Shown: piece after piece, positions 5,624-55,998 of the stretch
Numbering within the stretch: position 1 is the first letter of the stretch
Layout: each line of letters starts with the position of its first letter
NCBI RefSeq assembly: GCF_006716115.1
Contig: NZ_VFOO01000001.1
Location: forward strand, 1,860,001-1,924,000
DNA length: 64,000 nucleotides
Reading direction: 5' to 3'
Source of the DNA: Subtercola boreus
GTDB lineage: Bacteria; Actinomycetota; Actinomycetes; Actinomycetales; Microbacteriaceae
Notes under the pieces: generated by a model
What the model saw: the letters and a program-made list of their open reading frames with translations, nothing else
Database searches by the model: none
What the model was told of the DNA's origin: nothing
Position numbers and translations under genes: made by a program

Positions 5624-7063
5624 CTACGACGCCGCGTGCGCCTCTAGGAACTCGTACACTTCGCGGTCGTCGACGCCCGGGAACTTGCCCGACGGCAGCG
5701 GGGAGAGCACGTGCGCGTGCAGGCGCGCGCTCGGCCAGGCGCTCTCCGACCAGCGCTCGACCAACCCCGACGCAGGGCGCCGGCAGCACGACTCATCGGG
5801 GCAGCGGGACTGGGCCCGCTTCTCGGTGTCGCGCCCGCGGAACCATTTGGCGTCGGCGAACGACGTGCCGAAGCTGATCGAGAACTCCCCCGCCGCCGTC
5901 GTTCCCGTCTGGGTGGCGCACCAGAACGTGCCCGAGGGCGTGTCGGTGTACTGGTAGAACTCGGTGCTGCGATTGGTGCGGGTGAGCGCGACACGGGCGG
6001 CCCAGTTGCGGCAGACGAACTGGCCCTCGACGGCTCCCGTGACATCCTGCGGCAGCGGCAGGCCGTCGTTCTCGTAGGCCTTCTGGATCGCCCCGTCGTC
6101 CGTCAGGCGGAGGAAGTGCACGTCGATGCCGAGGTGCGAGGTGGCGAGGTTGGTCATCCGCAGCGCCGCTGCTTCGTGGGTGACACCGAACGCGTCGCGA
6201 AAGTCTTCGACGGAGAGGTCCCGCCGGGCCTTCGCCGCCTGCAGGAACTTCACGGATGCGGCCTCGGGCATCAGCGAAGCGGCCGCGAAATAGTTGATCT
6301 CCAGCCGCTGCTGCAGGAAGTCGGCGTAGTTCTGCGGCGGCGTGTGACCGAGCACGCGGTGCGCCATCGCCTGCAGCGCCATCGAGCGGAGCCCGTGCCC
6401 GCCGGGGATCGAGGCCGGGGGCAGGTAGATGCGCCCGCTCGCGAGGTCGGTCACCGAGCGTGCCGAATGCGGCAGGTCGTTCACGTGGATGAGGCGGAAG
6501 CCGAGGTCTTCGGCGAGCAGGCTCACTGTGCGGTGGCTGAGGGCACCGCCCGTGTGGCCGACGCGCGCCAGGGTCTGCTCCACGAGCTTCTCGAGCTCGG
6601 GGAGGTGATTGTTCCGTGCGCGCATCTGATCGCGCAGTTCGGTGTTCGCCCGGCGGGCCTCCTCGGGGGTCGCGATCGACTCGGTCGCCCGCCGGATCAG
6701 CTCGCGGTGGAGCCCGACGAGCGACTCGAGGGTCTCCTGCGGGAGGTTCCGGCTGGCGGGAACACGCGGCAGCCCGAGCGAGGCGTAGAGGTCGCCGGCC
6801 TGCGCCCGCGCGAGCTCGATCTCGAGGGCGGTGCGGGCATCCGGAGCCTCGGCGGAGAGCAGGTCGGAGAGCGGGATCCCGAGCACGGAGGAGAGGGACT
6901 GCAGCAGGGAGAACTTCGGCTCCCTGCGGCCGTTCTCGATCAGCGAGAGCTGGCTGCCGACGACACCCACCTTCTCGCCCAGCTGGTCGAGCGTGAGGTC
7001 GGACGCCTTCCGGAAATGCCGGATGCGCCGGCCGAGGGTGATCAGGTCGAGACTCGATGGCAT
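5624..7063 (-). CDS. RamB/ScfR-type XRE regulator with ImmA/IrrE-like domain
   Basis: 479-aa transcription factor. It has an N-terminal XRE helix-turn-helix (residues ~8-65, [20 protein letters not shown]), a middle ImmA/IrrE-like domain, and a C-terminal ScfR-type domain with clustered Cys ([10 protein letters not shown]). The family includes RamB of Corynebacterium, which controls acetate/glyoxylate genes and senses acyl-CoA-type signals. The metallopeptidase HExxH site is degenerate here (HRVLGH), so it is likely a sensor and not a protease. ATG 7063 has a strong AGGAGG site. It is divergent from pckG, which makes pckG the obvious target; autoregulation is plausible. Confidence 0.88.
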
Positions 7064-7206
7064 CTTTGCCTCCTGTAAAGAACGGACGATCTTTCACGGT
7101 ACTTCTTCAGAATTTAGCGCATATTGAGCGCACAGTGGAAGAACACCACAGAACTTCAGCATCCTTTCAACCGACGGATGCCACAGCCTCAGCGAGCGGA
7201 GCGATC
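7064..7206. promoter_or_regulatory. Divergent promoter region between the RamB-like gene and pckG
   Basis: The 143-bp gap must carry both promoters. On the minus strand TAAATT (7116-7111) is a candidate -10 for the regulator. AAAGA-N8-TCTTT (7077-7094) is a small dyad overlapping the regulator leader, and GCGC-ATATTGA-GCGC sits at about 7117-7131. I do not see a clear copy of the published RamB box, so operator assignment is tentative. Confidence 0.4.
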
Positions 7207-9105
7207 ATGAGCCTCTTGGACCGAACGACACAGAAGACCTCGACCTCGACGTACCCCACCCGCGTCGACAGCGTCGGAAGCCGCCCCGCCCGGGCATCCG
7301 AGACCCCGACCACCCTGCGCATCGATGCCGGGCTGGCCGCGTGGATCGCCGACGTCACCGCGCTCACCGAACCGAGCAATGTCGTCTGGTGCGACGGCTC
7401 GACGGCCGAGTACGACCTACTGACCAAGGCGATGGTCGCGCAGGGCACGCTGATCCGGTTGAACCCAGAATGGCGCCCCAACAGCTTCCTGGCCCGCAGC
7501 GACCCGGCCGATGTGGCGCGCGTCGAGGACCGAACGTTCATCTGCTCGACCACCGAGATCGATGCCGGCCCCACGAACAACTGGCGTGAGCCGGCCGAGA
7601 TGAAGGCCGAGCTGACGACGCATTTCCGCGGCAGCATGCGCGGCCGCACCATGTACGTGGTGCCGTTCTCGATGGGTCCCGTCGGCGGCCCGCTCTCGCA
7701 GGTCGGCGTGCAGGTCACCGACTCGCCCTACGTCGTGGTCAGCATGGCGCTGATGACCCGCATCGGCACGGATGTGCTCAACCTGATCACCGACGACGCT
7801 CCGTGGGTGCCCGCGCTGCACAGCGTGGGTGCGCCCCTCACACCGGGTGCGGTGGATGTCGCGTGGCCGCACAATGCGTCGAAGTACATCGCCCACTTCC
7901 CGGAGACCCGCGAGATCTGGTCGTTCGGATCGGGTTACGGCGGAAACGCCCTGCTCGGCAAGAAGTGCTTCGCGCTCCGCATCGCCTCGGTGATGGCCCG
8001 CGACGAGGGCTGGATGGCCGAGCACATGCTGCTCGTCAAGATCACCTCGCCCGAGGGCCGCGTCTACCATGTGGCCGCCGCCTTCCCGTCGGCCTGCGGC
8101 AAGACGAACCTCGCGATGCTGAAGCCGACCGTTCCCGGCTGGAAGGTCGAGACCATCGGTGACGACATCGTCTGGATGCGCCCCGGCCCCGACGGAAAGC
8201 TCCGCGCGATCAACCCCGAACGCGGCTTCTTCGGCGTCGCCCCCGGAACCGGGATCGAGACGAACCAGACGGCCGTCGACACCATGTGGGGCAACACGAT
8301 CTTCACGAACGTCGCCCTCCGCGACGACGGGGATGTCTGGTGGGAGGGCCTCACGCCGACCCCGCCGGCGCACCTGCTCGACTGGCAGGGCAACGACTGG
8401 ACGCCGGCCTCCTCGACCCCCGCGGCGCACCCGAACGCCCGCTTCACCGTGACGGCCGACCAGTGCCCCTCGATCGCCGAGGAGTGGGAGTCGCCCGAGG
8501 GTGTCGTCGTCGACGCGATCCTCTTCGGCGGGCGACGCCCGTCGACCGTGCCGCTCGTAGCGCAGTCGAAGAACTGGGCGCACGGCGTGTTCGTCGGGGC
8601 AACCATGGCCTCGGAGACCACCGCTGCCGCGGCCGGTGCCGTCGGCCGCCTCCGCCACGACCCGTTCGCCATGCTCCCGTTTGTCGGCTACAACATGGCC
8701 GACTACTTCCAGCACTGGCTCGACATGGGCGACGTGCTCGGCGAGAACGCTCCCCCGATCTTCCAGGTGAACTGGTTCCGGAAGAACGACGCGGGCTCGT
8801 ACATCTGGCCGGGATTCAGCGAGAACTCGCGGGTGGTCGAGTGGATCATCCGCCGCCTCGAAGGTGATGTGGCCGCGCGCCAGACGCCGATCGGCGGACT
8901 CCCGCTGGTGCACGAGCTGAACGTCGAAGGCCTCGGCCTCTCGGATTCGGATGTCGCGACCCTCACCGGCGTCGACAAGGCCGCCTGGCTGGCCGAGGCC
9001 GACGAGACGGCAACGTACTTCGACTCGCTCGGCGCCGACAGGATGCCCGAGACCCTCATGACCGAGCTGGCGCGCCTTCGCGCGGGGCTCGCGAAGCTCG
9101 CCTAG
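7207..9105 (+). CDS. pckG: Phosphoenolpyruvate carboxykinase (GTP)
   Basis: 632-aa cytosolic enzyme that converts oxaloacetate + GTP to PEP + GDP + CO2, the entry step of gluconeogenesis. The kinase-1 loop is [13 protein letters not shown] (about residues 291-303), with the PEPCK patterns [20 protein letters not shown] before it and IGDDIVWM after it. Length is slightly above the ~600-610 aa common for the family because of an N-terminal Ser/Thr-rich extension. ATG 7207 is preceded by CGGAG. It is divergent from a RamB/ScfR-type regulator that probably tunes it to carbon source. Downstream is a long palindrome shared with the convergent exporter operon. Confidence 0.97.
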
Positions 9106-9129
9106 CCCCCGGCCCTCGCGCCGGCCGTC

Positions 9130-9195
9130 GAACGGACGAATCTGAGCGAACACGCTGCCGTATTGGCTGGCGCGCTTGCTCAGCTTCGTCCGTTT
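9130..9195. repeat. 66-bp imperfect palindrome between convergent genes
   Basis: AACGGACGAATCTGAGCGAA (9131-9150) pairs with TTGCTCAGCTTCGTCCGTTT (9176-9195) with one mismatch and two wobble or offset positions, and pairing continues weakly inward. It lies between the ends of pckG and the exporter permease. It can act as a two-way transcription terminator although no T-tract follows. Its arm resembles that of the palindrome at 51878-51937. Confidence 0.75.
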
Positions 9196-9266
9196 GCACG
9201 TGCAGGGCGGTGTGGGCGCTGGCGGCTGTGGGCGGGCGGTTGGGCGGGCCGGTCGGCCGGCAAGGC

Positions 9267-10493
9267 TCAGTAGCGGATGGCGTCGATCACCTTCACGCGC
9301 ACCGCGACGAGGGCGGGCAGCAGGCCCGCAATCGCGCCGACGACGGTCGCCGCCGCAAGGCCGAGCAGCGCCGCCTCGAGCGGGAACGGCGGGATGTCGG
9401 TCACCCCCTGCGAGATCACGTCTTCGACCCACGGGCTCTTCACAATCAGGATCGAGAGCATCACCCCGACGACGCCGGCCGCGACCGTCGCCACCACGCT
9501 CTCCATCATCACCGCGAAGAACACCCGCGACGCCGTGGCACCGAAGCTCCGCCGGATCCCGATCTCCTGGATGCGCTGCCGCACCGTCACGAGCGAGATG
9601 TTCACGAGGCCGAGCGCCCCGAGCAGCAGCACGAGCACCGCGACGCCACTGATCATGAGCTTGATCGGCAGGAACGGGTCGTCGCCGTAGGCGGCGTAGT
9701 CCTGCCGGTTGACCTGCGCGGTGGCGCCGTCGCCGAGCGAGGCGCTGAAGTCCGACTGCAGCCGTGTGGTCAGTTCCGCCGAGATCTCCGGCGGCACCCA
9801 CATCTCGTACGACGGGTAGGAGGGGTACGTGGCATCCGTCGCCAGCTGGTCGGCGAGCCGCGTGTACGCGTCGTTCAGCATCATCATGCTCGGCTGGTCC
9901 TCGTAGGGCAGAGCGGCGGTGACACCGGTGATCACGGCCGTCACCGGCTTGGCGCCGACCAGGCTCACGGTCGGGTGGGTCGCGAGGTCGGGCGAACCGA
10001 GCCGCTGCCAGAAGATGTCGTTCACGATGAGGGCCGGCGCGAGGCGGGCGGCGTCGGCCTCGCCGAACCACGCCCCCTTCACCACCTCGACCCGGTGCAT
10101 CGTGCCGTACGGCTGGTCGACGAGGGTCGAGTTGACCGGGCTGACGCCGTCGATGAACTGGATGCTCAGCTGCTGCTGGTTCACCCGGCTGGCGTAGTGC
10201 ACGCCGTACCTTTCGAGCGCCTCGTTCCAGGTCTTGTCCATGGTGGCGGCCGGCGGCGCGGAGCCGTCAGCCGTGTACGCCGACACGTAGAGCGTGGCCG
10301 GCCGGCCGCTCGAGCGCTCGCTGGTCTCGATCGTGGCCTGCTGGGCGATGTTGCCGAGCGCCACGACACTGGTGAGCGCGCAGACCGCGACCGCAACGCC
10401 GACCAGCGAGAGCAGCACCCGGGTGCGGTGGATGCGGAGCTCCGCCCACGCCTCGACGACGCTCCCGACGAACGCAGTGACGAGCCCCCTCAC
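9267..10493 (-). CDS. MacB/FtsX-type ABC transporter permease
   Basis: 408-aa membrane subunit of a tripartite exporter. Topology fits the MacB family: one N-terminal helix (about residues 28-50, VLLSLVGVAVAVCALTSVVAL), a large extracytoplasmic MacB_PCD domain (~50-270), then three C-terminal helices around residues 277-300, 325-350 and 365-395. GTG 10493 overlaps the stop of the upstream ATPase gene (GTGA), so the two are translationally coupled. With the adaptor and ATPase it likely exports a peptide, antibiotic or lipid-like molecule; the substrate cannot be told from sequence. Confidence 0.88.
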   Translation of the reverse strand: MRGLVTAFVGSVVEAWAELRIHRTRVLLSLVGVAVAVCALTSVVALGNIAQQATIETSERSSGRPATLYVSAYTADGSAPPAATMDKTWNEALERYGVHYASRVNQQQLSIQFIDGVSPVNSTLVDQPYGTMHRVEVVKGAWFGEADAARLAPALIVNDIFWQRLGSPDLATHPTVSLVGAKPVTAVITGVTAALPYEDQPSMMMLNDAYTRLADQLATDATYPSYPSYEMWVPPEISAELTTRLQSDFSASLGDGATAQVNRQDYAAYGDDPFLPIKLMISGVAVLVLLLGALGLVNISLVTVRQRIQEIGIRRSFGATASRVFFAVMMESVVATVAAGVVGVMLSILIVKSPWVEDVISQGVTDIPPFPLEAALLGLAAATVVGAIAGLLPALVAVRVKVIDAIRY

Positions 10494-11242
10494 GAGTCGC
10501 TCCCCCCGCCCGCCGCGGCGAACGGATGCCCGGAGGCGCCGGCCCGGGCCGTGACGGGAGCCGCCGCATCCACCAGCGCGCCCTTCTCGAGCCGGAACCG
10601 CCGCGTCGCGAGCGCCGCGATCGCGGGGTCGTGCGTGATCGTCACCAACGCAGCATCCGAGGCCGTCGCGATCTCGTCGAGCAGCGCCATCACGATCTCG
10701 CCCGTCTCGATGTCGAGGGCGCCGGTCGGCTCGTCGGCGAGGATGAGACGGGGGCGCCGCACCAGCGCGCGGGCGATCGCGACGCGCTGCTGTTCGCCGC
10801 CCGAGAGCCGATCCGGGGTCGACGACAGGCGGTGCCCGAGCCCGACCCGGTCGAGCATCTCGCCGGCGATGGCCCTGCGGCGCCAGAACGCCGATCCGGT
10901 GTCGTAGAGCAGGGGCGTCATCACGTTCTCGAGCGCGGTGCGGCCCTGCAGCAGGTTGAACTGCTGGAAGATGAAGCCGACGTCGCGGCCCCGCGTCACA
11001 TCGCGCCGCCGCGCAGAGAAGTCGCGCGTCGGCTCCTCGTCGAGGAAGATCTCGCCCTCCGTGGGCGAGTCGAGCAGCCCGAGCAGGTTCAGCAGCGTCG
11101 ACTTGCCCGAGCCCGACCGACCGACGATCGACAGGCGGTCGCCGACCTCCACCACGAGGTCGACGCCGTCGAGGATGACGAGGGGGCGGTCATCCACCCG
11201 GGAGACGGTGCGGCCGACCCCCCTCAGTTCGAGGAATGTCAC
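10490..11242 (-). CDS. MacB/LolD-type ABC transporter ATPase
   Basis: 250-aa ATP-binding subunit. Walker A GRSGSGKST (about residues 41-49), Q-loop FIFQQFNLL, signature LSGGEQQRVAIARAL, Walker B LILADEPTGALD and the switch histidine in ITHD are all present, so it should be active. The start is taken as GTG 11242 (VTFLELRGV), 4 nt after the stop of the adaptor gene; an upstream in-frame ATG would run into that gene. It pairs with the permease that overlaps its 3' end. LolD/MacB-type ATPases drive mechanotransmission to the extracytoplasmic side instead of moving substrate through the membrane helices. Confidence 0.93.
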   Translation of the reverse strand: MTFLELRGVGRTVSRVDDRPLVILDGVDLVVEVGDRLSIVGRSGSGKSTLLNLLGLLDSPTEGEIFLDEEPTRDFSARRRDVTRGRDVGFIFQQFNLLQGRTALENVMTPLLYDTGSAFWRRRAIAGEMLDRVGLGHRLSSTPDRLSGGEQQRVAIARALVRRPRLILADEPTGALDIETGEIVMALLDEIATASDAALVTITHDPAIAALATRRFRLEKGALVDAAAPVTARAGASGHPFAAAGGGSDS

Positions 11243-11246
11243 GCGC

Positions 11247-12329
11247 TCAGCCCGCCACGGCGAAACCGCCGCCACTGACGTCGAAGCAGTTCGGCACGCC
11301 GTTGCAGCCGTCGGTCGGCGCGACCGCACCGGGCACGAACTGCAGCACAGTATCGCCCGCCGCCAGCCCGGAGACGACCTGCACCATGCTGCCGTCGGTC
11401 AGGCCCAGGATGACCGGCCGCTGCTCGGTCGTCCCGTCGGGCAGCACGAACCAGATGTTGCCGTTCAGCGCGGTGCCCTCGACGGCCGTGGTGGGGATGA
11501 CGAGCACGTTCTCGGCCTTCCCCGCGGCGATCGTGACATCGGCGGCGAGGCCGGAGAAGACGCGCACGTCGCCCGGCACGCTGCAGCGGAGGGTGTTGCC
11601 CGAGCCGCTGCCGCCGTCGCCCCCGCCGGTACCGCCCCCGCCGGTCGAGCCCGAACCTCCCGAGCCACCGGATCCACTTCCATCGGAGCCTGCCAGCGGC
11701 GTGACGATCGTCAGCCCGGTGCACGTGAACGGCGCCGGCCCGCCGGTGATCGCGACCTGCGCCTCTGTCGGCTGGCTGACGAGCCGGTACTGGTCGGCCG
11801 CATTCAGCGATCCCGTGACGGAGAAGGTCGGCGGTGCGATCTGCCCCGCGACATCGCCGACCGCCATCGACTGCCCGGCGAGCACCGGCAGCGCGCTGAC
11901 GATCCCCGCGATCGGGGCCGTCACGTCGACGTAGGTGATGAGCGGCTTCCGCGGGGTCTCGATGGCCGCACCGTCGGGGCCGGTCGTCTGCACCGGGTCG
12001 CGCTGGGTCTCCACCTTGATGTCGAAGATCGTGTCCCCGGCAGCGACCGTCGCGCCGACCGCGACCTGCACCTCGTCGACGACACCGATCGCGGTCGCCC
12101 GGATGGGCGAGGCCGGATCCGCGCTCACGGTCGCCTTCAGAGTGACATCGTTCGAGATCGTGCCCGTCGTCACCGTCGCCTGCGGTTCGGTGAGCTGGCC
12201 CGTCGGCACGGCAGGGTCGGCGACCGCCTGCGTGTCAGGGAAGAACGCCAGCTTGCAGAGCGCCGCCGCGATGGCGACGACCACGACCAGTCGGATGATC
12301 GGAAATACCCATTTGCGGACAACACCCAC
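11247..12329 (-). CDS. HlyD/MacA-type adaptor of ABC exporter
   Basis: 360-aa extracytoplasmic adaptor anchored by an N-terminal helix (about residues 9-29, VFPIIRLVVVVAIAAALCKLAF). Two biotinyl-lipoyl-like half motifs flank the centre (VVDEVQVAVGATVAAGDTIF and VTAPIAGIVSALPVLAGQSM), and a C-terminal beta-barrel region follows. A Gly/Ser-rich insert (~residues 210-245) sits in the middle. GTG 12329 has GAAGG upstream. First gene of the three-gene exporter operon; a possible promoter TTTGTC-N16-TAGACT lies at about 12431-12404 on the minus strand. Confidence 0.88.
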   Translation of the reverse strand: MGVVRKWVFPIIRLVVVVAIAAALCKLAFFPDTQAVADPAVPTGQLTEPQATVTTGTISNDVTLKATVSADPASPIRATAIGVVDEVQVAVGATVAAGDTIFDIKVETQRDPVQTTGPDGAAIETPRKPLITYVDVTAPIAGIVSALPVLAGQSMAVGDVAGQIAPPTFSVTGSLNAADQYRLVSQPTEAQVAITGGPAPFTCTGLTIVTPLAGSDGSGSGGSGGSGSTGGGGTGGGDGGSGSGNTLRCSVPGDVRVFSGLAADVTIAAGKAENVLVIPTTAVEGTALNGNIWFVLPDGTTEQRPVILGLTDGSMVQVVSGLAAGDTVLQFVPGAVAPTDGCNGVPNCFDVSGGGFAVAG

Positions 12330-12460
12330 GGTGGCACCTTCGTGTCGGCCCGGTTCTGCGGGCGGCGTACAGATTGCCCGTCGTTCTCCCCCACGGACAC
12401 CCCGAGTCTAGGGAGTTCCGGTGAACGACAAATCGTCCGCGAGGATGAGTTCATTGCGCG

Positions 12461-12473
12461 TATAATCGAGCAA
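12461..12473 (+). promoter_or_regulatory. Perfect -10 box giving a leaderless start
   Basis: TATAAT at 12461-12466 is followed by exactly six bases and then ATG 12473, so transcription should begin at or next to the start codon. No Shine-Dalgarno and no good -35 are seen. The spacing repeats at several other genes in the window. Confidence 0.7.
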
Positions 12474-14869
12474 TGCTCACTCCGTGTTTCTCCGCCTGGT
12501 CATCCGACCGCCCGGCATCGAACAGGTCGTCGACGATCGTCGCTTCGGGGCTCCGGTTCCGGCTGGACGAGACTCGGATCCGTGAGTTCCTGATGGGCGA
12601 GAGCCTCTACGGCGATCCGTCACTCGCGCTCCGCGAGCTCTACCAGAACGCTCTCGATGCCTGTCGGCTCGCCGTTGCCCGGCTGACGTACCTCCAGCTC
12701 GAGCCCGAGGTGTGCTCGCCCGCGCGACCGCGCATCGAAGTCGTGCAGGGCTTCAGCGACGATGGGCGAGCCTTCGTCGACTGTATCGACCGGGGTGCCG
12801 GCATGGGTGTGGAGGAACTGTCGCTCGCCTTCTGTCAGGCGGGGGTGCGAGCATCCGACCTGGTGGACCGCTCGGCGGAGGCAGCCGACTTCGCCGCAGC
12901 AGATCCCCCCGTCGAGCTGTGGCTGAACTCCCGATTCGGGATCGGCGTGATGTCGTACTTCATGATTGCCGAGCACGTCGACGTGAGCACTGCGCGCCTG
13001 AACCGCGACGGATCGATCGGCAGACTGCTCACCCTGCACATCCCCGGGCCTGCTGAAGAGTTCGAGATCGTCGACCACGGACTGGCAGAGTCGCATGGAA
13101 CACGCGTGCGACTCTGGCTGAAGCCGGGGTCACAGGTCTCCGCCGTCTCCACCCTCCGCGATCTGGTCTTCGTCTGCCCGTTCACACTTCATGCCAGCGA
13201 CAAGCGCGGGCTCGAACACCGCTGGATTCCGCATGAGCTCAATCGCGCTTCGACGAGCCAACCGGGTGCCGATTTCAGCAGTGCCGTCCCGGGTGTTCCC
13301 GGTCGCCTGTGGTGGATCGCGGGAATCGGCACCGTCCTCGCTGACGGAATCTGGGCCCAGGGTTGGCTTCATGGCATGGTTGTGAGCCTCGAGGGGACGA
13401 CCAGGCCGCAACTCACGGCCGATCGCACCAAGATCGTGCGAATGGATCACAACGCCATCGAATCCCTGGCCGTCGCAGCTGCAGCCAGCGCCGTCGATGA
13501 AGCCTGGGCGATCGTCGGCACTCCGGGTTGGCTGGGTGCGGCGACCCAGCACCAACACAGGGTCGCCGATGCTGTCATCGAACTCGCGGCTGACAGAGGC
13601 CTCGGCATCCGACTGCCCAGCGGCTCTGTGCCTCTCAGCGTCACCGGATACCTGGCGGGAGACGAAGACACCTCGGCTGGCCTGGCATCGCGGTCGGTGC
13701 TCGCCTGGCGCTTCTCCCGTCTCGCCGCCGGCGGGCACTACCTCGGCATCGGCGTGCCGAGGGGATCGGCTGAGGTTCTGCCTGCCCGTCCATCCGACGC
13801 GATCCTGCTCGGCGTGATGCACTACACCTACCGCCATGGCACCGGCCTCGAGACGAGCGACTGGTTCGGTGACGCGACATCGATCTACGAGGCCGAGCGT
13901 CATCTCGAGATCCCGCTCCGGGACGTCGTCTCGAGAGCCCGGCGGCTCGGACTGACGGTGCCGCCGGGCGCAGACGGCCTGCCGGACACCACTGAAATGG
14001 TGCGCACGGCACTGTCGTTCAGCAGGCGCCAGCGTAAGAACGACACCTTCCGACCACTGGGCCTCTTCGACATTGTGCAGACGTCGTGGGAACACGGCGT
14101 GATGCCTTCCGAGGTCGTCGCCGAGTTGGAAGCCCACTCGATAGCCGTCGATCCCTCCGTGCACTCGATGCTCGAGAAGACACTCGAGGCGGCACACCTG
14201 ATCGCTGCCAGCACGCAGTTCAATGGCGTCGCCCCGTGGCTCTGCGCGTCGGATGTCGTGGGGCTCAGCCATGTCCTGCGAGTGGCAGGTGTGACAGGGC
14301 AGGCGTGCTCCGAAGTGGTGCGGTGTCTGCGCGAGCTAGGATTCTCCGATCTGCCGGCGTTCCGACTCGATGGCGTCGAGCCCTCTGCTGACGACGTCCG
14401 AATGCTCAGCGTGGACCTCGATGGCAGAACGCCGTTCATCGACGCCGCTCAGCCCGTACGGCACTCTCATCTTGTGAAGGCCGCCAAGGAACTGAAGGTG
14501 TTGCAGAACGTCCTGGAGGAACGCTTCGCCCAGTTCGGTGTCACATTTCTCGCACCTGCTGAAGAACCTCGCGACCTCGGAAGGTTGAGCAAGAAAGAAC
14601 TGTTCTCCCACCTGGGCCTCACGGGCGCACGGCGAGATCTCGTTCTGCCCCGCCACCTGGAGATCATGAGCCTCGACGCTGACGGCCGCGCGCCCTGGCT
14701 GAACCCGGCGGAGCGCATACCCGCTTGGACAGTGGCATCCTTCGCGCTCTCCCAGAACCGCACCCTCGACGCTGTGATCGCAGACTGTCTCTGGCTCGGC
14801 TACACGGTCGAAGATCCGCGGACCGTCGAACGCGTCCGAGTCCCTGGGCCGGAACACGCCCTGCGGTAG
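12473..14869 (+). CDS. Hsp90-like (GHKL) ATPase with C-terminal winged-helix-like repeats
   Basis: 798-aa protein. The N-terminal GHKL ATPase has the Bergerat motifs of Hsp90: ELYQNALDA (residues 55-63, Glu55 and Asn59), DRGAGMG (106-112), and RFGIGVMSYFM (154-164). The rest is unlike HtpG. Residues ~520-798 show at least two clear repeats, LSVDLDGRTPFIDA and MSLDADGRAPWLNP, each followed by ~45 residues of helix-rich sequence, plus two weaker earlier copies; they look like winged-helix units. This recalls the wHTH-Hsp90 proteins proposed to act in bacterial conflict or stress systems, which is my recollection and not shown here. It is a single gene with no obvious partner, divergent from an exporter and upstream of valS. 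Function unknown. Confidence 0.75.
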   Translation: MLTPCFSAWSSDRPASNRSSTIVASGLRFRLDETRIREFLMGESLYGDPSLALRELYQNALDACRLAVARLTYLQLEPEVCSPARPRIEVVQGFSDDGRAFVDCIDRGAGMGVEELSLAFCQAGVRASDLVDRSAEAADFAAADPPVELWLNSRFGIGVMSYFMIAEHVDVSTARLNRDGSIGRLLTLHIPGPAEEFEIVDHGLAESHGTRVRLWLKPGSQVSAVSTLRDLVFVCPFTLHASDKRGLEHRWIPHELNRASTSQPGADFSSAVPGVPGRLWWIAGIGTVLADGIWAQGWLHGMVVSLEGTTRPQLTADRTKIVRMDHNAIESLAVAAAASAVDEAWAIVGTPGWLGAATQHQHRVADAVIELAADRGLGIRLPSGSVPLSVTGYLAGDEDTSAGLASRSVLAWRFSRLAAGGHYLGIGVPRGSAEVLPARPSDAILLGVMHYTYRHGTGLETSDWFGDATSIYEAERHLEIPLRDVVSRARRLGLTVPPGADGLPDTTEMVRTALSFSRRQRKNDTFRPLGLFDIVQTSWEHGVMPSEVVAELEAHSIAVDPSVHSMLEKTLEAAHLIAASTQFNGVAPWLCASDVVGLSHVLRVAGVTGQACSEVVRCLRELGFSDLPAFRLDGVEPSADDVRMLSVDLDGRTPFIDAAQPVRHSHLVKAAKELKVLQNVLEERFAQFGVTFLAPAEEPRDLGRLSKKELFSHLGLTGARRDLVLPRHLEIMSLDADGRAPWLNPAERIPAWTVASFALSQNRTLDAVIADCLWLGYTVEDPRTVERVRVPGPEHALR

Positions 14870-14934
14870 AATGGGGGCGACATCACAAAAGGCACCCCAG
14901 ACTCGGTGCCGCCTATAGTGCCTGGAGGGCCACC
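14867..14934 (+). promoter_or_regulatory. valS promoter/leader with hairpin
   Basis: Two candidate -10 boxes are seen: TAGAAT 14867-14872, whose first three bases are the stop codon of the preceding gene, and TATAGT 14914-14919. Between them GGCACC-N8-GGTGCC (14891-14910) forms a 6-bp hairpin without a T-tract. GGAGG lies just before ATG 14935. Whether the hairpin regulates translation or attenuates transcription cannot be decided. Confidence 0.45.
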
Positions 14935-17559
14935 ATGACCGCGAACGTACCTGACAAACCCGCGCTGGAAGGCCTCGAAGGCAAGTGGGACGACCTGTGG
15001 TCGGAGCGCGGCACGTACCGCTTCGATCGCGCCCTGACCCGCCGCGAGAACGTCTACTCGATCGACACCCCGCCGCCGACAGCGAGCGGGTCGCTGCACA
15101 TCGGGCACGTCTTCTCCTACACGCACACCGACGTCATCGCGCGGTTCCAGCGGATGCGCGGCCGGAGCGTGTTCTACCCGATCGGCTGGGACGACAACGG
15201 CCTGCCGACCGAGCGTCGGGTGCAGAACTACTATGGCGTGCGCTGCGACCCGACGCTGCCGTACACCGCCGACTTCGTGCCCCCGTACGAGGGCGGCGAC
15301 AACAAGAGCGGCAAGGCAGCCGACCAGAAGCCGATCAGTCGCCGCAACTTCATCGAGCTGTGCGAGCGCCTGACCGTCGAAGACGAGAAGCAGTTCGAGG
15401 CCCTCTGGCACCGGCTCGGCCTCTCCGTCGACTGGTCGCAGACCTACCGCACCATCGCCGACTCGTCGATGCGGGCGAGCCAGCTCGCATTCATCCGCAA
15501 CGTCGCGCGCGGCGAGGCCTACCAGGCGCAGGCCCCCACCCTCTGGGATGTCACGTTCCGCACGGCGGTCGCTCAGGCCGAGCTCGAAGACAAGGACATG
15601 CCGGGCGCGTACCACCGAATCGCGTTCCACGGGGAAGGCGAGAACGCCGGCAACGACATCTTCATCGAGACCACCCGCCCGGAACTGCTCGCGGCCTGCG
15701 TGGCGCTGGTCGCGCATCCGGATGACGAGCGCTTCAAGCCGCTCTTCGGCACCACCGTGACCACCCCCCTCTTCGGCGTCTCCGTGCCGATCGTCGCCCA
15801 CCACCTCGCCCAGCCCGACAAGGGCGCCGGCATCGCCATGATCTGCACCTTCGGCGACCTGACCGACGTGATCTGGTGGCGCGACCTGTCGCTGCCGAAC
15901 CGCGCGATCGTCGGCTTCGACGGGCGCATCATCAGCGAGGCTCCGGATGTCATCACCAGCGACGCCGGGCGGGAAGCGTATGCGCAGATCGCCGGCAAGA
16001 CGATCTTCTCGGCCAAGCAGGCGGTCGTCGACCTGCTGCGCGAGTCGGGTGAACTGATCGGGGACCCGAAGCCGATCATCCACCCGGTGAAGTTCTTCGA
16101 GAAGGGCGACAAGCCGCTCGAGATCGTGTCGACCAGGCAGTGGTACATCCGGAACGGCGCGCGCGACGAAGAGCTGCGGCAGCGCCTGCTCGACATGGGC
16201 GACGACGTCGACTGGCACCCGGCCTTCATGAAGGTGCGCTACGACAACTGGGTCAACGGGCTCACCGGCGACTGGCTGATCTCCCGCCAGCGCTTCTTCG
16301 GCGTGCCGATCCCCGTCTGGTACCCGCTCGACGGCGACGGCAACCCCGTCTTCGACCAGCCCATCGTCGCCGACGAGGCCGCGCTGCCGGTCGATCCGTC
16401 GTCGGATGCCGCACCCGGCTACGACGAAGACCAACGCAACACCCCCGGTGGGTTCGTCGGCGAACTCGACGTGATGGACACCTGGGCGACCTCGTCACTC
16501 ACCCCGCAGCTCGCGGGCGGCTGGGAGCGGGATCCCGAACTCTGGGAGCTCGTCGCGCCCTACGACCTGCGCCCCCAGGGGCAGGACATCATCCGCACCT
16601 GGCTGTTCTCCACCATGCTGCGCTCGGCGCTCGAAGACGGCCGCACCCCGTGGAAGCACGCTGCGCTCAGCGGTTTCATCGTCGACCCCGACCGCAAGAA
16701 GATGTCGAAGTCGAAGGGCAACGTCGTCACCCCTGCCGACGTTCTGGAGACTCACGGCTCTGATGCGGTGCGGTACTGGGCTGCATCCAGTCGCCTCGGG
16801 ACAGATGCCGCGTTCGATTCACAGAACCCGACCCAGATCAAGATCGGCCGTCGGCTCGCCATCAAGGTGCTGAACGCGGCGAAGTTCGTCTACGGGTTCG
16901 AGCTGCCTTCCGGTTCGTTCGGCGTGACGCATCCGCTCGACCTGTCGATGCTGACGCAGCTCGATGAGGTCATCATCGCCGCGACGGCCGCGTTCGAGAG
17001 CTACGACCACGCCCGCGCGCTCGAAGTCACCGAGACGTTCTTCTGGACCTTCTGCGACGACTACCTCGAGCTCGTGAAGGAGCGCGCGTACAGCGCCTCA
17101 TCGGATGCCGCGGCCAAGGCCTCGGCCGTGCTGGCCCTGCAGGCCGCGATCGACGTGCTGCTGCGGCTGCTCGCCCCGTTCATCCCGTTCGCGACCGAGG
17201 AGGTCTGGTCGTGGACGCACCATTCCTCCATCCACAACTCGGTCTGGCCGACCGGACTGACCGCCGGTGAGGGCGCTGCTTTCGCTCCGGATGCCGCACC
17301 CGCCCTGCCCGCGCACAGCTCGCTGCTCGGGCTCGCCGGGCAGGCCCTCGTGGGCGTCCGCCGCGCGAAGACCGACGCGAAGGCCTCGCAGAAGACGCCC
17401 GTTGCCTCGGCGACCATCTCAGGGCCCGCTGCGGCGCTCGAGGAGCTCGCGCTGGCATCCGAGGACCTGAAGCAGGTCGGGCGCATCGAGACGCTGACCT
17501 TCGTCGAGGGTCCGGAGCTTGCCGTGACCGAGATCGTGCTCGAGGCGGGCGACGCGTGA
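14935..17559 (+). CDS. valS: Valyl-tRNA synthetase
   Basis: 874-aa class Ia synthetase charging tRNA-Val. The HIGH-type motif is PPPTASGSLHIGHVFSY near residues 44-60, an editing domain lies at about 190-350, and KMSKSKGN is near residue 585. The C-terminal part keeps the anticodon-binding helices and ends with a short Ala-rich segment. ATG 14935 with GGAGG upstream is the natural start; earlier in-frame starts fall in the preceding gene. The GNAT gene starts inside its stop codon, so the two are co-translated. Confidence 0.97.
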   Translation: MTANVPDKPALEGLEGKWDDLWSERGTYRFDRALTRRENVYSIDTPPPTASGSLHIGHVFSYTHTDVIARFQRMRGRSVFYPIGWDDNGLPTERRVQNYYGVRCDPTLPYTADFVPPYEGGDNKSGKAADQKPISRRNFIELCERLTVEDEKQFEALWHRLGLSVDWSQTYRTIADSSMRASQLAFIRNVARGEAYQAQAPTLWDVTFRTAVAQAELEDKDMPGAYHRIAFHGEGENAGNDIFIETTRPELLAACVALVAHPDDERFKPLFGTTVTTPLFGVSVPIVAHHLAQPDKGAGIAMICTFGDLTDVIWWRDLSLPNRAIVGFDGRIISEAPDVITSDAGREAYAQIAGKTIFSAKQAVVDLLRESGELIGDPKPIIHPVKFFEKGDKPLEIVSTRQWYIRNGARDEELRQRLLDMGDDVDWHPAFMKVRYDNWVNGLTGDWLISRQRFFGVPIPVWYPLDGDGNPVFDQPIVADEAALPVDPSSDAAPGYDEDQRNTPGGFVGELDVMDTWATSSLTPQLAGGWERDPELWELVAPYDLRPQGQDIIRTWLFSTMLRSALEDGRTPWKHAALSGFIVDPDRKKMSKSKGNVVTPADVLETHGSDAVRYWAASSRLGTDAAFDSQNPTQIKIGRRLAIKVLNAAKFVYGFELPSGSFGVTHPLDLSMLTQLDEVIIAATAAFESYDHARALEVTETFFWTFCDDYLELVKERAYSASSDAAAKASAVLALQAAIDVLLRLLAPFIPFATEEVWSWTHHSSIHNSVWPTGLTAGEGAAFAPDAAPALPAHSSLLGLAGQALVGVRRAKTDAKASQKTPVASATISGPAAALEELALASEDLKQVGRIETLTFVEGPELAVTEIVLEAGDA

Positions 17560-55831: not shown

Positions 55832-55880
55832 TGTCGTGCCCTTTCGTCGATACGAATGAGGCACGGGTTCTGTGAGATTG

Positions 55881-55970
55881 TCCTCCCTGCGCTGGCATGA
55901 TCCAGATCAGGTTCGACGGTCGAAGGTTGAGAACCTTCCTCTCAGCCCGGCTCACCGGACTCCCGTGTTG
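55881..55970 (-). promoter_or_regulatory. TPP (THI-box) riboswitch
   Basis: On the minus strand the conserved elements follow in order: CCGGGCTGAGAGG, then GAACCTGATCTGG, ATCATGCCAGCGCAGGGAGG. These are the pyrimidine- and pyrophosphate-sensing arms of the TPP aptamer. It ends 17 nt before ATG 55864 and 50 nt before GTG 55831; with no T-tract terminator, translational control is likely. Confidence 0.96.
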
Positions 55971-55998
55971 CCTGAAGTATCCCATAGTGTGAGGTTCT

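Follow-up and report, generated by a model that had tools for sequence, protein, structure and literature searches.

Gene X (12473..14869, forward strand) encodes a 798-residue protein in which an Hsp90-type ATPase is joined to wHTH-like repeats and no effector domain is found. Throughout, the window means the whole stretch of 64,000 nucleotides that was analysed. Our preferred interpretation, to which we give a probability of roughly 45% from sequence comparisons, is that X belongs to the HSP90-wHTH ATP switches, for which a part in bacterial immunity is predicted, and has been cut down to the switch and its recognition array, working by direct capture. Alleles of X at the same chromosomal locus are also far more divergent than the core genes on either side of them.

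Domain architecture of X

The Hsp90 N-terminal (Bergerat) ATPase domain covers residues about 24–240 (12542..13192, forward), and E55, N59, D106, G110, G156 and G158 are invariant in all 45 aligned rows. It is followed by the proximal Hsp90 middle (S5-like) subdomain at residues about 241–344 (13193..13504, forward); the earlier note's statement that X has no middle domain is not supported. Within this subdomain Arg318, placed by its offset from the aligned range, falls near the position of TRAP1 Arg402, the middle-domain arginine of that chaperone. Both the sequence and a structure model of X match the fold of the Hsp90 N domain plus the proximal middle domain, and the catalytic residues are present. 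In a structure search of BFVD with the model of the window protein, many phage RIIA proteins match the Hsp90 part.

The remainder of the protein consists of a middle region (residues 345–560; 13505..14152, forward), with a weak repeat at 432–497 and a degenerate one at 503–555, and of three clear wHTH-like repeats at residues 565–624 (14165..14344), 631–690 (14363..14542) and 718–777 (14624..14803), all on the forward strand. Of the five HTH-like repeats, three are clear and two weak; the spacing of about 115 residues proposed earlier is not supported. The combination of an Hsp90-like ATPase with wHTH-like repeats does hold: X matches PF24410 (HSP90-wHTH), the sole Pfam family found in it, at 105.7 bits against a gathering score of 23, with the ATPase N-terminal to the repeats as in that family.

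For X the NCBIfam HtpG model gives 39.6 bits against a cut-off of 371, over residues 40–219 only, so that X lies below the cut-off for the full N-M-C architecture. It has the N domain, the proximal middle domain and its arginine in common with HtpG and TRAP1, but no match to their distal middle and C-terminal domains. By Pfam there is neither an HtpG-like nor an enzyme domain after residue 344, in agreement with the earlier note, and no caspase or TIR effector is fused to X. Against the anti-phage systems catalogued in PADLOC 2.0.0, X matched 0 families.

Distribution and genomic context

Of 12 Subtercola genomes 4 have X and 8 lack it; in Herbiconiux it is present in 3 of 16 and missing from 13, and the genes number nine in total. 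At locus 1 it lies between pckG (7057..9105, forward) and valS (14938..17559, forward), in the window, in G153 and G203, and in Herbiconiux G288 and G093. Among the 11 Subtercola genomes in which this interval can be read (that of G090 is unreadable at a contig end), three contain X, six are empty (G286, G248, G300, G301, G302 and G303) and two hold transporter genes without X: all three in G007, the permease alone being called in G299. X is thus not universal beside valS. Locus 2, between the genes for a Helicase_C_3 protein and an XPB helicase, contains X in 3 of 12 Subtercola genomes (G153, G203 and G302) and is empty in the other nine, while locus 3, between glnA and glnE, contains it in Herbiconiux G403. 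The named neighbours of X are core genes and do not make up a defence island. The reading frame is uninterrupted in the window, G288, G093, G153 (both copies), G302 and G403; both copies in G203 (S. boreus P27979) have broken frames, from either decay or sequencing error.

In the window the transporter genes, for a MacB/FtsX-like permease, an ABC ATPase and an HlyD-like protein, occupy 9267..12329 on the reverse strand, and they are found in the same interval in some other Subtercola. X lies on the valS side of this trio in the window and in G203, but on the pckG side in G153 (L023), so one of the two must have moved or been inserted twice. Such an arrangement could be read as the work of one selfish or mobile gene with a habit of inserting next to promoters, its diversity being due to repeated gain, since X is a single-gene insert between core genes and occupies three different loci. 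However, the one aligned junction shows no clear target duplication (the neighbours being partly annotated), and the locus-specific clades described below favour descent of alleles at each locus over free movement; we hold this reading to be quite improbable. Around X in G093 (L022), positions 7881–8429 hold a second 3' fragment of pckG behind X, of 182 residues and 84% identical to the pckG of that genome itself, which looks like a remnant of a pckG-flanked segment imported from a relative; STAS- and phosphatase-like remnants, named by eye, also lie around X in this locus.

A TATAAT −10 box (12461..12466, forward) stands 6 nt before the start codon of X, and a TANNNT box is found at this same spacing in 5/5 locus-1 genes, so the transcript is likely to be leaderless. 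At the other end, the stop codon of X overlaps a TAGAAT that is the probable −10 box of valS (14867..14872, forward). The overlap is seen in the window and in G288, and the four empty sites compared have TAGAAT (two) or TATAAT (two) at that position. X also runs in the same direction as pckG and valS at all five locus-1 sites. Co-direction and overlap together might suggest a specialised housekeeping chaperone or a regulator of these neighbouring core genes, but 8 of the 11 readable Subtercola genomes have no X between pckG and valS, X also occurs at two unrelated loci, and its sequence is very divergent; we regard such a role as very improbable indeed.

Within 14867–14937 of the window, the valS leader contains an inverted repeat, GGCACCCC..GGTGCC, that is short and conserved and has no match in Rfam at gathering score. 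Elsewhere in the window, 55867–55976 on the reverse strand matches the TPP riboswitch aptamer (Rfam score 55.0, gathering score 54.3).

Relatives of X and their partner domains

Among 84,980 species genomes scanned there are 328 relatives, of which the best 80 were examined. In 72 of these 80 the longest ORF exceeds 1000 residues (1002–2293), and most relatives have more repeats than X. Ten of the 80 were used to build an iHD-CE profile, which was then run on all of them. It matches the same ORF, as a fusion, in 71, and a site just upstream, where the ORF is split, in another two (L068 and L110). The seven that it misses are L099, at a contig end, and six others, all from Subtercola or Herbiconiux; it has no match in the window or in L021–L034. 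Eleven long relatives were scanned with Pfam, and the iHD-CE family is nearly full length in ten of them and partial in the eleventh, L049. Among six scanned, iHD-CE is preceded by a caspase (Peptidase_C14) in L071 and by TIR_2 in L067; one or the other was found in 2 of 14 relatives scanned, so a caspase or TIR effector is not universal there. A small gene of one particular cluster lies within 7 kb, mostly directly upstream, at 22 of the best 80 loci; the single member of this cluster that was scanned is Pepco, a partner that is likewise not universal. The relatives thus do carry further domains, as the earlier note had said.

X itself has none of these parts: neither the iHD-CE adaptor nor a caspase, a TIR domain or Pepco is found within it or next to it. 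By Pfam, iHD-CE (positive control 4/4) and Peptidase_C14 are both found in 0/12 Subtercola genomes, and so is Pepco, for which 1 of 14 control genomes matched, below the cut-off. The suggestion that X stands alone here is upheld to that extent. HD-CE occurs in a single one of these genomes, G090, for which the search gave no X.

These observations bear on whether X might instead be a helper-like sensor subunit that switches in trans, driving an unlinked effector such as a TIR protein, a nuclease or a membrane protein. With iHD-CE fused or just upstream in 73 of the best 80 relatives, passing on a signal is the usual mode of the family. But the absence of iHD-CE, caspase and Pepco from all 12 Subtercola genomes and the occurrence of HD-CE only where X was not found speak against it, as does the fact that X is the sole called neighbour that loci 1 and 2 have in common (locus 3 being judged by gene names only). 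We consider action in trans possible, although on the unlikely side.

Divergence of X relative to its flanks

At locus 1 the X proteins are 43–53% identical in all ten pairs. The flanking proteins (pckG, valS and an XRE-family protein) are 88–97% identical within Subtercola, 83–87% between the two Herbiconiux and 73–81% between genera. The X proteins of locus 2 are 38–45% identical. One row in these comparisons is the broken gene of G203, whose pieces are separated by the letter X. Conservation within X is highest in the N domain (59–72%), compared with 35–45% for the C-terminal part.

For silent sites we use fourfold-site identity in excess of that expected, corrected for composition, leaving out the broken locus-1 gene of G203. 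Between the window and G153 this excess is 0.47 [0.43, 0.50] for the flanks and 0.09 [−0.01, 0.17] for X; the corresponding values are 0.25 and −0.02 for G288 and G093, and 0.21 and −0.01 at locus 2. The four between-genera pairs (flanks 0.11–0.21, X 0.01–0.09) say little, because silent identity is low in the flanks too. Silent divergence of X alleles at the same locus is thus shown, in these alignments, to be near saturation when that of their within-genus neighbours is not, and since X has lower silent identity than its flanks within genera, its alleles look older than the common ancestor of the flanks. Alternatively, the lower codon bias of X (GC3 of 0.78, against a median of 0.89 for 45 window genes) could have hastened silent saturation.

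Two clades appear in the tree, each at 100/99: one holds the locus-1 genes of both genera, the other those of locus 2. The branching order within locus 1 is unsettled. An AU test did not reject the Subtercola locus-1 alleles as a single clade (p = 0.107), which leaves allele sharing across genera unproven.

Copies without the ATPase in Herbiconiux G403

At locus L147 (G403:C223) an 892-residue X at 7113–9791 is followed by two head-to-tail copies that lack the ATPase. The first (9795–11434) contains a frame break; the second (11450–12994) begins at a point just past the X middle domain, and PF24410 matches both this copy and the second piece of the first. Codon-aligned nucleotide identity between the second copy and X is 0.81–0.86 over X residues 373–532, 0.48–0.68 across the variable stretch that comes next and 0.78 for the final 34 residues, so that the ends are conserved and the core is variable. 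Profile searches of the best 80 of the 328 loci, the window and L021–L026 gave no further clear case, though L086 has repeats upstream of the X homologue and L048, L050, L061 and L081 have repeats past the end of the called ORF. The G403 copies are a single case; they may instead have arisen by a tandem duplication that has since decayed, or serve as separate subunits.

Signs of decay raise the broader question of whether X is an orphan, a functionless module remaining after loss of its effector. Frames are broken in both G203 copies and in one of the truncated copies of L147, X is patchily present, and it has fewer repeats than most relatives. Set against this are the seven intact reading frames listed above, the invariance of the catalytic residues over 45 aligned rows, the constant spacing of the −10 box in the five locus-1 genes, and the fact that two genera and three loci have the effector-less form, on the strength of which we think decay rather unlikely.

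Proposed mechanism and comparison with known systems

By analogy with Hsp90, X would form a dimer that closes on ATP and opens once this is hydrolysed; the repeat array would pick a ligand, either a component of an invader or one that marks self from non-self. Given the acidic character of the array at locus 1, this ligand is more likely to be a protein than a nucleic acid. ATP-driven closing would then capture or remodel the ligand, in which case X could act by direct interference and would need no fused effector. In relatives the switch sits behind iHD-CE, and in some also behind a caspase or TIR domain; lacking these parts, X could act only directly or through an unlinked partner. Against the immune reading stand the lack of a PADLOC match, the core genes as neighbours, the absence of X from most of the Subtercola and Herbiconiux genomes and the broken frames in G203. 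Conflict with invaders may maintain the many alleles. These would be exchanged when the conserved flanks recombine, and the ATPase-less copies may provide a further route in one genome. Taken to its full extent, the proposal is that X is the counterpart of a polymorphic immune receptor, driven by Hsp90 and without an effector, with one gene per core locus and an old, divergent pool of alleles that outlives species and perhaps genera, recombined through housekeeping flanks and in some genomes, such as Herbiconiux G403, re-tailed from silent, sensor-only cassettes that lie head-to-tail after the expressed gene. In this complete form we hold it to be doubtful.

NLR/STAND immune receptors combine an ATP switch, driven by a P-loop ATPase, with recognition repeats. 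X has the same plan, with an Hsp90-type rather than a P-loop ATPase and without an effector. Nicastro et al. are said to have described HSP90 modules as STAND analogues (NAR, 2023). The HSP90-wHTH modules of predicted immune systems (PF24410 with PF24401, iHD-CE) resemble X in placing the Hsp90 ATPase before the wHTH repeats, whereas X has no iHD-CE, fused effector or Pepco, has fewer repeats than most, and sits at fixed core loci. A GHKL ATPase module is also found in VcSduA, a GHKL ATPase–Shedu nuclease which is reported to protect against phages (PMC12137116); there the C-terminal part is a nuclease, whereas Pfam finds no nuclease domain in X.

The HSP90-wHTH module and its predicted immune role are already known from Pfam entries. 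What appears to be new, as far as we have looked, is the effector-less form in Microbacteriaceae, the unusually old allelic divergence at fixed loci, and the ATPase-less copies, none of which we found described in the openly licensed papers searched.

If X works alone, it would be a very small form of the HSP90-based switch predicted for bacterial immunity, and an easy case for finding out what the wHTH arrays bind and whether clamping driven by ATP suffices. The pairing of conserved neighbours with very divergent alleles, together with the ATPase-less copies in one genome, offers a testable system for the diversification of recognition domains. If the cassette reading is true, X would represent cassette-based diversification of a bacterial immune sensor.
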